Source: Candidatus Limnocylindria bacterium (lineage in GTDB: Bacteria; Chloroflexota; Limnocylindria; P2-11E). From it: 35,825 nucleotides of DNA. A model generated the notes under the pieces. That model did no database searches and was not told the origin of the DNA. It saw only the letters and a list, made by a program, of their open reading frames with translations. The position numbers were made by a program, and so were the translations under genes. The DNA lies in contig DATDEH010000004.1 in the NCBI GenBank assembly GCA_036523395.1, positions 1-35,825 on the forward strand, in the 5' to 3' direction. This document shows, in pieces, positions 29,569-34,187 of the stretch. The stretch's first letter is position 1. Each line of letters starts with the position of its first letter.

Positions 29569-30522
29569 CTAGAGCCACCCCTTGCGTCGGAAGTAGAGCG
29601 CGGTGCCTGCGGCCACGGCGAGCATGAAGATCAGCGACGCGAAGAACAGCGGTTCGCTGTCGTACGGGATGAATTTCCAGTTCTGCCCGAAGAAACCCGT
29701 GACCACAGTGAGCACCAGCAAGACGGTCGCTACGCTCGTGAGGACCTTCACGACCTCGTTCAGCCGGTTGGACACCGACGCCAGATGCGCGTCGATGACG
29801 TTCGAGGTCAGCTCGCGGAACGTGTCGATCTCGTCGGTCACGCGCGAGATGTGGTCGTACACGTCCTGGAAGTACGCGCGGCGCCCGGTCTCGCGCAGCT
29901 CGCGGATGTCGCCGCGCACGAGGACGGTCAGGACATCCCGCTCCGGCGCGATGAGGTGGCGGATCCGCACCAGGTCACGCTTGAGCACGAACAGCTCCCG
30001 GATCGAGGTGTCGTAATCGGGCGCCTCGCCGCCGACGACCATCGACTCGAGGAGCTCGACGCGATCGCCGAGCGCGTCCACGATCTTGAAGTACTGGTCG
30101 ACGATGGTGTCGAGGAGCGCGTGGAGGAGGAGCCCCGTGGTCGCCAGCTTTCCCTCGCGGAAGCGCTTCTCGACGGCGGCGCGCGCGGTGAAGTCGCCCT
30201 CGTGCACCGTGACGATCGCGTTCTGCGACATGAAGATCGAGATCTCGACCTCGCGCACCACGCCGGGCGACGGCTCCTCGAGCGCGTAGAAGACGATGAA
30301 GTAGTGGTCGTCGTACTGGTCGATCTTCGGCCGCTCGTGCCGCTGCTGCGCGTCCTCTACCGCGAGCGGGTGCAGATTGAGCTCCTTCGCGGCGAGCTCG
30401 AAGTCGTGGCTCTTTGGATCGCTGATGTCGAGCCAGCACGGGCGGTCGCGGAGCTCGGAAAGCTCCTCGGGCGGCCGTTCGCTGGTCTGGTTCGCTTCCT
30501 TGACGAGCAAACGCGCAGGCAT
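29569..30522 (-). CDS. CorA-family divalent cation transporter with GQN motif
   Basis: This 317-residue protein has the CorA architecture: an N-terminal alpha/beta domain, a long helical stalk (about 110-265) and two C-terminal membrane helices (about 262-280 and 292-311). CorA proteins carry magnesium, cobalt or, in ZntB, zinc. The selectivity motif normally reads YGMN; here it is FGQN with Gln280 in place of Met. The C-terminus ends in basic residues after the second helix. A TAGCCT box lies exactly 6 bases before the ATG, with no ribosome binding site, which suggests a leaderless transcript. It ends 19 bases before atpZ and may be transcribed into the atp operon. Confidence 0.88.
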   Translation of the reverse strand: MPARLLVKEANQTSERPPEELSELRDRPCWLDISDPKSHDFELAAKELNLHPLAVEDAQQRHERPKIDQYDDHYFIVFYALEEPSPGVVREVEISIFMSQNAIVTVHEGDFTARAAVEKRFREGKLATTGLLLHALLDTIVDQYFKIVDALGDRVELLESMVVGGEAPDYDTSIRELFVLKRDLVRIRHLIAPERDVLTVLVRGDIRELRETGRRAYFQDVYDHISRVTDEIDTFRELTSNVIDAHLASVSNRLNEVVKVLTSVATVLLVLTVVTGFFGQNWKFIPYDSEPLFFASLIFMLAVAAGTALYFRRKGWL

Positions 30523-30967: not shown

Positions 30968-31408
30968 GTGGCCCAGCCCGGCGGCCTTCGCGCCATCGAA
31001 GAGGTGGTGCCCAGACTCGGCGCGAAAGCGGGTTTCCCAGCCCTACGTATCGGCCACGTGACGAAGTACGACCGGCCGCTCGAGCACCTGACCGGGCAGC
31101 TCGATATCGCTCCGCTGAAGCTGCCACTCCGCGCGCGCGATGGACGCTACGGTCTGGTGCTCTGCTTCTCACTCGATGAGGTCGACCCACCCAGGCTGGC
31201 GCGCGAGCTCGTTCGCGTCACCCATCCCGACGGAACGATCTGGGTCGTGGTGTGGAAGAAGGATCATCTTCCGCCGGGTGTCCTGTCGTGGGACGAGGCG
31301 CAGCGGGTGATGCTCACGACGGCCTGGGTCGATAACAAGATCCTGTCGCTCGGCGAGCAGGTCTACGCGACCCGTTACGTCCGCCGGCGCCGGCCGGCGA
31401 AGGTCTAG
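30968..31408 (+). CDS. DUF3052-like protein of unknown function
   Basis: This 146-residue protein has no signal or membrane segment. The alternating pattern with YGLVLCFSLDEVDPPRLARELVRVTHPDGTIWVVVWKKD and a final WVDNKILSLGEQVYATRYVRRR resembles DUF3052 proteins from Actinobacteria, in which an acidic segment, a DG-x-IWV strand and a C-terminal wATR strand recur. The match is by eye and not certain. The start is the GTG at 30968, with a TAGACT box 6 bases upstream that suggests a leaderless message. The next gene starts 2 bases after its stop. Confidence 0.6.
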   Translation: MAQPGGLRAIEEVVPRLGAKAGFPALRIGHVTKYDRPLEHLTGQLDIAPLKLPLRARDGRYGLVLCFSLDEVDPPRLARELVRVTHPDGTIWVVVWKKDHLPPGVLSWDEAQRVMLTTAWVDNKILSLGEQVYATRYVRRRRPAKV

Positions 31409-31410
31409 CC

Positions 31411-32355
31411 GTGGAACCGCCAGCCCGCCCTCAGCGTCGCATGAGTGTGCGTCTGCCAGGGCTCGTTCTCGCGCTGGCGCTCGCCGCATGTGGCGGCGGG
31501 CTCGCCTCGCCGACCCCGTCGCCGACACCACCGCCGCAGCCGCTCACGGTGCCCCAGATGAAGTACGCGGTGACGGACCAGCTGGGCCGGCCATGGTTCT
31601 GCGACCCCGACTTCTTCCCGGTCGGGCGCGGCGATGAGGGTCAACGCGCGCAGGAGAAACTGCCAGAGATACAGAAGGATGCCGGCACGTTCAGCGCGAT
31701 CGTTGCGCATCTCAAGCTGTCGCCGGCGCCCCCGTATATGGCGGACCAAACGCTCGCGATCTACCGCGAGTGGAAGACGCTGAACGCGATACAGCTGCAG
31801 CCCGGGTCATTCGGATCTCCCAGCACGCTCCAGGACTGGACCTTCGCGTACCTCGCGATGAGGAACACCGGCGGCGGCGAGCGCGTCGAGGGTCGCGTGA
31901 CCGCGGACGGGCGCATCACCGTCACGGCTCGCCAGCAGTCCGGACCACCGCCGTGCCCGATCTGCCTTGCGGTCGGGACGCACATCGCGACACCGAGCGG
32001 TGAGATCGCCGTGCAGGACCTGCGCGTCGGGGACGTTGTCTGGACGCCCGACCCCAGTGGAACGCGAGTTCCCGCACCGCTCGTGGCAATCGGGAGCACG
32101 CCGGTGCCAGGAACGCACATCGTGGTCCGCCTCGCGCTGGACGACGGGCGCATCGTCTATGTCTCGCCGGGTCACCCGACCGCCGACGGGCGTCACATCG
32201 GCGACCTCGCCGTGGGCGACATGCTCGATGGCGCGCGGATCGCGAGCGTCGACCGGGTTGCCTACGCGGGGGGTGCGACCTACGACGTCCTCCCGGCTGG
32301 CGCGACGGGCGCCTACTGGGCGAACGGCGTGCTACTTGGGAGCACGCTCCGCTAG
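31411..32355 (+). CDS. Lipoprotein ending in a Hint (hedgehog/intein) domain
   Basis: This 314-residue protein is secreted as a lipoprotein (lipobox LAAC, Cys27 from the GTG start; an internal ATG at 31441 would also keep the signal). After a Pro/Thr linker there is an unrecognised extracytoplasmic domain (about 45-175). From Cys185 a Hint-type module follows: CLAVGTHIATPSGEIAVQDLRVGDVVWT, then VSPGHPTADG with His255, then a second LAVGD turn, and a final TYDVLPAGATGAYWANGVLL. In inteins the domain ends in His-Asn before the extein. Here it ends in VLLGSTLR, so splicing is unlikely, though self-cleavage at Cys185 as in hedgehog proteins is conceivable. Its TAG and the TAG of the S9 peptidase share one CTAG. 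Confidence 0.75.
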   Translation: MEPPARPQRRMSVRLPGLVLALALAACGGGLASPTPSPTPPPQPLTVPQMKYAVTDQLGRPWFCDPDFFPVGRGDEGQRAQEKLPEIQKDAGTFSAIVAHLKLSPAPPYMADQTLAIYREWKTLNAIQLQPGSFGSPSTLQDWTFAYLAMRNTGGGERVEGRVTADGRITVTARQQSGPPPCPICLAVGTHIATPSGEIAVQDLRVGDVVWTPDPSGTRVPAPLVAIGSTPVPGTHIVVRLALDDGRIVYVSPGHPTADGRHIGDLAVGDMLDGARIASVDRVAYAGGATYDVLPAGATGAYWANGVLLGSTLR

Positions 32356-34187
32356 GTCTCGAGGAGCTCCCGCGTCAGGAACTTCACGATCCGGCTGTAA
32401 GCGTCCTCGGCGTTCGCGCGCTTCGTGAAGCCGTGGCCCTCGCCGGGATACACGACGTATTCGACACGACGGCCAAGTGTGCGCAAACGCTCGACGACCT
32501 GATCCGATTCTTCCTGCGGCACGCGCGGGTCGTTCTCGCCCTGGAGGATGAGCATCGGGCAGCGCACGTTCTCGATGTGCGTGATCGGTGAGCGCTCGAT
32601 GAGCTTCTCGCGGTCCCGTTCGACGTCGCCGATCCAGCGCGCGAGAAATCGACGCCAGTTCGGTTGCGCGTTCTCGATCATGGTGATGAGATTCGCGACC
32701 CCGAAGACATCGACCGCGCAGCGCCACAGGTCGGGGATCCGCGTGACACACATGAGCGTCGCGAATCCCCCGTACGAGCCTCCGTAGACAGCAAGGCGCT
32801 TCTGATCGAAGTCCGACTGCGTCGTCATCCACTCGGAGACCGCGCGGAGGTCGCGCAGATCTATCCCGCCCCAGTCCTTGTGGATCGCGGCCTGCCACGC
32901 GCGACCGTAGCCGGTCGAGCCGTGGATGTTCGGGACGACGAGCGCGATCCCGTTGTGCACGAGCGCAGCGAGATGCGTCAGATGCGCCGAGAACGCTGGA
33001 CGCGACTGGCCCTCGGGTCCGCCGTGTGGATACAGGACCGCGGGCACGGGTCCGCGCGCGCCGCGCGGCCGGTATACGAAGCACGGGATGTCGCCGTCGG
33101 CCGCCGGGATGCGGATGAGCTCCGGCTCGACGAGCTCGGTGGCCGGCACGCCGAACGTCGTCGTGAGTGCGACGCGTGCCTCGCCGCTCGCTATGTCGAG
33201 CGTCCACACCTGCCACGGCTCGGTCGCCGAGATCCGCGCGAACGCCGCGCGCGTTCCGTCGGCGCTGAGCACCAGATCCTCACAGACTCCATGCAGGTCG
33301 CGCTCGCGGATCGGACCGCCGCCCTGCCGCCAGCGCAGGCGCGAATAGCCGTCCTCGTTCACCGACCAGATCTGCACGCGTCCGTCGACCGATGACGCCG
33401 CGAGCTCGACGTCCCACTTCGGTTGGTCGACGGCATCGCGTCGCCCACTCGCCGGATCGAGCGCTGCGAGCCAGAGGTGGTCGCTCTTCAGATCGGTGAT
33501 CTCGAGCACGCGTCCATCGCTGAGCCATCCCGCGGGGATGTGCTGCACGTCCTCTTGCTGTGGCGTGATCTCGCGAGGCTCCCCGGTGACCGGATCGACG
33601 AGGAGGAGCTCCTGCGTCGTGTTGTCGAGCACCCGCATCACGAGGAGGCGCGTGCCGTCGGGCGACCACCCGCCGGCGACATGCCACGCCGCGCCGGTGA
33701 TGAGCTGTCGCTCCGAACCCGTATCGAGGTCAGCGATCACGATGTCCATATCGGTCGCGATGCGCGAGTTGCTCGAGAACGCGACGCGCCGTCCATCGGG
33801 CGAGGCGGCGTTCCACGAGAGCAGTCGCTGCACCTTGCCCGCGGGATCGACGGAGACCGGTGCGACCGGGCCATCTGGGTGGCGGACGTACACCTGGTGG
33901 AGCTCGGTGCCGCCGCGATCGGCCGCCGCGAGCAGCTCACCGCTCGCGCTCCAGCAGAGGCTGCGGACGGCGTGCTCGGGGATGGTGACGGCGCGCTGCG
34001 CGGTACCGCCGGTCGCCGGAAGCGTCCAGGCCTCGTAGGTGCCGGCACCTTGATCGGATACGACCGCGAGCGTCCGAGCGTCCGGTGACAGCGCTAACAC
34101 GGACCTGCAGGCGAAGCGGCGTGTTGTGTGGGGCACACTCGCGAGCCGATCGTGCGGGTGGAAGTCCGAGAGCGGTCGGTTTGGCAC
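32352..34187 (-). CDS. S9 family (prolyl oligopeptidase-like) serine peptidase
   Basis: This 611-residue protein has a beta-propeller N-terminal part (about 25-340, repeated WSPDGTR-type blades) and an alpha/beta-hydrolase C-terminal domain. The catalytic triad is Ser471 in GGSYGG, Asp553 in GENDPRVP and His585 in GEGHGF. This is the S9C/acylaminoacyl-peptidase-like arrangement, acting on short peptides. No signal peptide is seen, so it is cytosolic. The GTG at 34187 is the longest start, and an in-frame GTG at 34136 is possible. A TACCGT box lies 8 bases upstream of the longer start. It converges on the Hint-lipoprotein gene with overlapping stops. Confidence 0.92.
   Translation of the reverse strand: MPNRPLSDFHPHDRLASVPHTTRRFACRSVLALSPDARTLAVVSDQGAGTYEAWTLPATGGTAQRAVTIPEHAVRSLCWSASGELLAAADRGGTELHQVYVRHPDGPVAPVSVDPAGKVQRLLSWNAASPDGRRVAFSSNSRIATDMDIVIADLDTGSERQLITGAAWHVAGGWSPDGTRLLVMRVLDNTTQELLLVDPVTGEPREITPQQEDVQHIPAGWLSDGRVLEITDLKSDHLWLAALDPASGRRDAVDQPKWDVELAASSVDGRVQIWSVNEDGYSRLRWRQGGGPIRERDLHGVCEDLVLSADGTRAAFARISATEPWQVWTLDIASGEARVALTTTFGVPATELVEPELIRIPAADGDIPCFVYRPRGARGPVPAVLYPHGGPEGQSRPAFSAHLTHLAALVHNGIALVVPNIHGSTGYGRAWQAAIHKDWGGIDLRDLRAVSEWMTTQSDFDQKRLAVYGGSYGGFATLMCVTRIPDLWRCAVDVFGVANLITMIENAQPNWRRFLARWIGDVERDREKLIERSPITHIENVRCPMLILQGENDPRVPQEESDQVVERLRTLGRRVEYVVYPGEGHGFTKRANAEDAYSRIVKFLTRELLET

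Follow-up and report, generated by a model that had tools for sequence, protein, structure and literature searches.

A Chloroflexota lipoprotein family with a C-terminal Hint domain that has lost the splicing end: a candidate prokaryotic analogue of hedgehog-type self-processing

Most of the bacterial Hint domains that have been studied are inteins, BIL domains in variable proteins or toxin processors; pretoxin-HINT proteins carry their cargo after the Hint domain. In inteins, an isoleucine at position −1 is expected to slow thioester resolution. The first step of intein chemistry relies on Cys1, a T-x-x-H motif in block B and an aspartate in block F (PMC10663303), while N-terminal cleavage via thioester hydrolysis, uncoupled from asparagine cyclisation, is an established intein side reaction (PMC3922620). 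In the Pyrococcus abyssi MoaA intein and in an engineered Ssp DnaE intein, a cysteine at −3 forms a redox lock with Cys1 (PMC3922620; for the Ssp DnaE trap, also PMC10663303). Secreted proteins with a C-terminal Hint domain were grouped by Burglin in 2008 in Proteobacteria and Myxobacteria (Myxococcus, Stigmatella, Reinekea, Photorhabdus, Serratia and Yersinia; PMC2362128), so that the layout described below is known in outline.

The window analysed here is the whole stretch of 35,825 nucleotides of a Candidatus Limnocylindria bacterium contig (DATDEH010000004.1). On its forward strand, an open reading frame of 314 codons (31411–32355) begins with GTG and ends with TAG; an ATG at codon 11 (31441) is an equally possible start. 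A first-pass annotation of the sequence had described the product as a lipoprotein with a C-terminal Hint domain, which the reading frame, the lipobox, a Pfam Hint_2 match and the predicted fold confirm; lipobox L-A-A-C27, Cys185 and His255 lie where it had placed them. The features are the following:

31411–32355, forward strand: whole open reading frame, 314-residue lipoprotein with a C-terminal Hint domain (aligned with its relatives)
31411–31491, forward strand: lipoprotein signal peptide with lipobox L-A-A-C, Cys27 being the lipidation residue (sequence, lipoboxes of relatives, Lgt and LspA in the genome)
31492–31542, forward strand: Ser/Thr/Pro-rich linker, residues 28–44 (sequence; comparable low-complexity linkers in relatives)
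31543–31953, forward strand: N-terminal extracytoplasmic domain, residues 45–181, containing an FCDPDF(Y/F)P motif (no Pfam or PDB relative found)
31600–31602, forward strand: Cys64 (co-occurs with Cys182)
31954–31956, forward strand: Cys182, at −3 from the Hint start (column counts; Cys(−3)/Cys1 precedent in PMC3922620)
31957–31965, forward strand: Pro183-Ile184|Cys185, with the predicted scissile bond between Ile184 and Cys185 (three residues invariant, 92 of 92)
31963–32343, forward strand: Hint domain, residues 185–311 (Pfam Hint_2, profile search of the PDB, fold comparison)
32164–32175, forward strand: block B motif Ser252-Pro-Gly-His255 (Ser252 and His255 invariant, 92 of 92)
32284–32286, forward strand: block F Asp292 (invariant, 92 of 92)
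32338–32346, forward strand: Gly310-Ser311-Thr312, at the sites of the intein penultimate His, terminal Asn and +1 nucleophile (structural register, column counts)

Searching the proteins of 61 related genomes returned about two dozen full-length homologues with 45–77% identity, and in a phylum-wide draw of 400 genomes a profile of the N-terminal domain recovered the family in 48. Class-wide searches, with strong matches only, found it in roughly 44 of 177 genomes of the window's class, 40 of 110 in another class and 16 of 323 in a third, to which the cultivated Dehalogenimonas member belongs (G281, ‘Candidatus Dehalogenimonas etheniformans’ GP). Throughout the 400-genome draw, strong Hint matches and the N-terminal domain always occurred in one protein and neither half alone, the exceptions being contig-end fragments and one frameshifted copy; weaker Hint matches (E about 1e-9 and above) represented other, mostly larger proteins. 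Sequences in the family tree were grouped mostly by class, suggesting largely vertical inheritance. A viral or plasmid origin was rejected, as a search of IMG/VR gave no viral relative and the plasmid search yielded only a distant 91-residue Hint match from Paracoccus. Our literature search found no published description of a Chloroflexota lipoprotein-Hint family. Judged by sequence, this two-domain protein, which recurs in several Chloroflexota classes, has the look of a conserved prokaryotic counterpart to hedgehog-type self-processing.

The gene neighbourhood was less uniform. No neighbour gene was common to all classes. The gene of an S9 prolyl oligopeptidase (32352–34187, reverse strand) converges on the Hint gene and overlaps the final 4 bases of the latter; such a convergent S9 peptidase gene is found often at the 3′ end, in several families of the window's class, and not in other classes, and was for this reason discarded as a clue to an operon partner. 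On the 5′ side, an ORF of 146 residues (30968–31408, forward strand) with a weak methyltransferase-like match (E 0.07) stops 2 bases before the GTG and is kept only in the nearest relatives. In Dehalogenimonas, the Hint gene is flanked by glutamine synthetase and NAD synthase genes. A CorA-type transporter gene lies less than 2 kb from the Hint gene both here (29569–30522) and in Dehalogenimonas (L217:9865–10944), which may be chance.

The assignment of the C-terminal half to the Hint fold is supported at several levels. Pfam Hint_2 (PF13403) matched residues 184–230 with 33–36 bits against a cut-off of 28.4 and recurred in every one of 49 diverse members of the family that were scanned. When the PDB was searched with a profile built from the Hint region of the family, the matches were an engineered intein, a C-terminal intein domain protein, a Clostridium thermocellum BIL domain, Mtu RecA inteins and hedgehog. 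A full-length AlphaFold model, built from an input of four sequences, reached a mean pLDDT of 44, and its 20 best PDB matches in Foldseek were all inteins, BIL or hedgehog. For a model of the Hint domain alone (mean pLDDT 66), VIA-align gave BIL domain 2lwy as the best match (Z 12.3, rmsd 2.6, 125 aligned residues) and placed hedgehog 6tyy close by (Z 11.7, rmsd 2.6, 121 aligned); 75 chains scored Z of at least 8, and among the 50 matches listed, all were inteins, BIL domains or hedgehog. With Z values of 9–12 to all three groups and the Hint_2 match above its cut-off, both profile search and structure prediction confirm the fold that had been proposed. Cys185 (model residue 11) aligns with intein residue 1 or hedgehog Cys258 in many alignments, in support of its proposed place as catalytic residue 1. 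Ser311 (model residue 137) aligns with the terminal Asn of the inteins (440 in Mtu RecA, 154 in Ssp DnaB and 137 in Npu DnaE), a C-terminal register that is good but not proven because the last 16 model residues have low pLDDT.

Conservation was counted over 92 distinct full-length sequences from several Chloroflexota classes. Fourteen residues are strictly invariant: Pro70, Gly161, Pro183, Ile184, Cys185, Leu186, Pro195, Gly207, Asp245, Arg247, Ser252, His255, Asp292 and Tyr302. They include the first-step acyl-shift machinery, Cys185, Ser252-x-x-His255 and Asp292, which carries the motifs of the Hint superfamily. The splicing end is a different matter. The first-pass annotation had it missing, and so it is in all 92 sequences; the protein does not stop at the His-Asn site, as had been stated, but has Gly310-Ser311 there, Thr312 at the +1 site and two more residues after it. 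Position 310 is occupied by Gly, Ala, Ser, Arg, Lys, Gln, Val or Leu and never by His, position 311 by Ser (89 sequences) or Thr (3) and never by Asn, and position 312, the +1 position, by Thr (91) or Ser (1). The chain ends 1–10 residues past position 313 in 89 of the 92 relatives, and tails measure at most 13 residues in 90. By these features the protein is not an intein, having Ser or Thr311 for Asn, no His310 and no C-extein, nor does it look like the product of an intein insertion, since a Hint-free N-terminal domain was absent from the 400 phylum genomes, bar contig-end fragments and frameshifts.

The same genome also carries a SufB intein (G000:C85:3573–3686, reverse strand, locus L231), which contains an endonuclease-sized insert and is apparently complete and splicing. 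It ends in His-Asn followed by Ser, so that the organism itself provides an example of a splicing end.

The missing splicing end could suggest that the Hint domain is a functionless remnant of a degraded intein. This reading is contradicted by the single defined architecture, the 92 distinct sequences and the 14 strictly invariant residues, and the complete SufB intein looks quite different; we give it almost no credence. Comparison with Hint-processed toxins, also raised in the first-pass annotation, failed as well: PT-HINT matches stayed at chance level (seen in 3 members out of 49, with E no better than 0.05), and a toxin cassette was rejected because nothing follows the Hint domain in the protein.

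At the other end of the protein, a script detected a lipobox-like motif in 83 of 92 relatives and inspection by eye added a further 7, and the source genome encodes both Lgt and LspA, a combination that marks a bacterial lipoprotein. The most divergent relative, L081 (genome G243), has a plain transmembrane segment instead of the lipobox, so that anchoring seems to be kept by other means. The N-terminal domain of about 137 residues (approximately 45–181) had no Pfam match, and a profile search of the PDB gave nothing credible; its pLDDT of about 25–40 in the full-length model, with its four-sequence input, is too poor for a fold. These data support the earlier description of an unrecognised domain on a lipid anchor, together with the suggestion that this domain, if cleaved, would remain at the membrane.

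We consider it somewhat probable that the protein is a self-processing membrane lipoprotein, in which the first half of intein chemistry would cut Ile184|Cys185 and leave an anchored N-terminal domain pinned by Cys64 and Cys182. After export, the lipoprotein would receive its lipid on Cys27 and fold outside the membrane. Cys185, helped by Ser252, His255 and Asp292, would then attack the carbonyl of Ile184 and convert the peptide bond into a thioester. Because the His-Asn end required for asparagine cyclisation is gone, this thioester would be resolved by water or a small nucleophile without that step, and the products would be the lipid-anchored N-terminal domain (27–184) and a free Hint fragment. 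As isoleucine at −1 is expected to slow resolution, uncut precursor might persist.

The relative conservation of the two halves bears on the fate of the thioester. Mean pairwise identity over the whole family is 54% in the Hint half vs. 38% in the N-terminal half (31963–32349 and 31543–31953 of the window), the Hint half being higher in 97% of pairs, which would be odd if the Hint domain were merely discarded. Together with the invariant Ile184, this suggests that the thioester may be resolved under some form of control or handed to an acceptor, and we therefore keep two less likely readings. The protein could be a hedgehog-like ligase, in which a specific nucleophile (an amine, a lipid, a sugar or a wall or S-layer component) captures the Ile184 thioester and the N-terminal domain becomes anchored at both ends. 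The cargo-then-Hint order is that of hedgehog, the invariant Ile184 would disfavour simple hydrolysis, and a Hint domain more conserved than its supposed cargo is expected if it also selects the acceptor. Yet with the chain ending so soon after position 313, there is no extra acceptor-recognition domain, the site of hedgehog's cholesterol-activating Asp is held by Ser229 in the register of the PDB profile, and no neighbour gene is conserved across classes; we regard such ligation as unlikely. A further, improbable variant is membrane-surface acyl transfer by a half-intein, which would pass the Ile184 thioester either to a dedicated acceptor, again with anchoring at both ends, or to Thr312 as a branched ester, permanent because asparagine cyclisation is impossible, while Cys64, Cys182 and Cys185 would form a triad that acts as a switch.

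The coupling of two cysteines outside the catalytic set could not be seen from the single sequence available to the first-pass annotation, nor could the family-wide conservation, and the coupling is new here. Of the 92 sequences, 89 have Cys64 together with Cys182 and 3 lack the two, and one never occurs without the other; Cys185 is always retained. In the three sequences lacking the pair (L067, L068 and L115), Val and Tyr stand in place of the cysteines, and genome G232 encodes two paralogues, one with the pair and one without it. The three sequences form a clade in the first tree and no longer do so once the two cysteine columns are left out. The latter tree allows one to three possible loss events, so that independent, repeated loss is not established, and the identical replacements argue for a single event.

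Joint presence and absence suggest a disulfide between Cys64 and Cys182 as the simplest and most likely reading of the coupling; it would pin the tail at the cleavage site to the N-terminal domain. Since Cys182 occupies the −3 site of the redox-lock cysteine of the MoaA intein, this disulfide may also gate the reaction, and a bond between Cys182 and Cys185 is a possible alternative. In the latter case, the protein would be a redox-locked precursor, held by a MoaA-type disulfide in the oxidising exterior, cut only after reduction and serving as a sensor. The spacing of Cys(−3) and Cys1 is identical to that in the MoaA intein and in the engineered Ssp DnaE redox trap, but Cys182 covaries with Cys64 rather than with Cys185, which stays when both are lost, and we find this reading doubtful. 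Oxidative control is also less obvious for members in strict anaerobes such as Dehalogenimonas.

A doubtful explanation as well is that no cleavage takes place, the Hint fold being retained for a structural or regulatory role, or CPIC working as a redox motif of the CxxC type, which it resembles. An isoleucine at −1, here Ile184, is unfavourable for cutting. Against this, Cys182 can be lost, whereas Cys185, Ser252, His255 and Asp292 are the same in every sequence, a catalytic set that one would hardly expect a mere scaffold to preserve.

Among described systems, the bacterial C-terminal Hint group of Burglin (PMC2362128), compared by its description only, is the nearest precedent in layout. 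As described there, the group shares with the family the C-terminal Hint domain, motifs A and B, two conserved upstream cysteines and, in some members, a signal peptide; the lipobox and the cysteine at −3 are features of the present family that the portion of the source describing the group does not mention. Like type B BIL domains (PMC7765530), the Hint domain here lacks the intein C-terminal motif and is predicted to cut at its N side. However, BIL domains sit in hypervariable regions of non-conserved proteins, whereas this one closes the chain in a single, conserved family of lipoproteins. A cysteine at −3 and the catalytic Cys1 are shared with the P. abyssi MoaA intein (PMC3922620), but that intein splices, while the present protein has no His-Asn and its Cys182 covaries with Cys64.

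The hedgehog comparison drawn in the first-pass annotation holds for the order of domains, a secreted N-terminal cargo followed by a Cys-started Hint domain, with Ser252-x-x-His255 at the place of hedgehog's T-x-x-H. Beyond layout it does not extend: the sterol-recognition region that follows the hedgehog Hint domain (PMC7906309) is absent, with the chain ending at residue 314, a serine replaces the catalytic Asp, and the lipid would come via the lipobox.

Overall, these results describe a Hint domain, predicted to cut only, that is fused one-to-one with a single lipoprotein domain across a wide range of lineages, cultivated Dehalogenimonas among them. If it is processed as we propose, the protein would offer a simple prokaryotic parallel to the maturation of hedgehog and a natural equivalent of the engineered Asn-to-X intein, and the coupled cysteine pair at the cleavage site suggests how cutting could be controlled.
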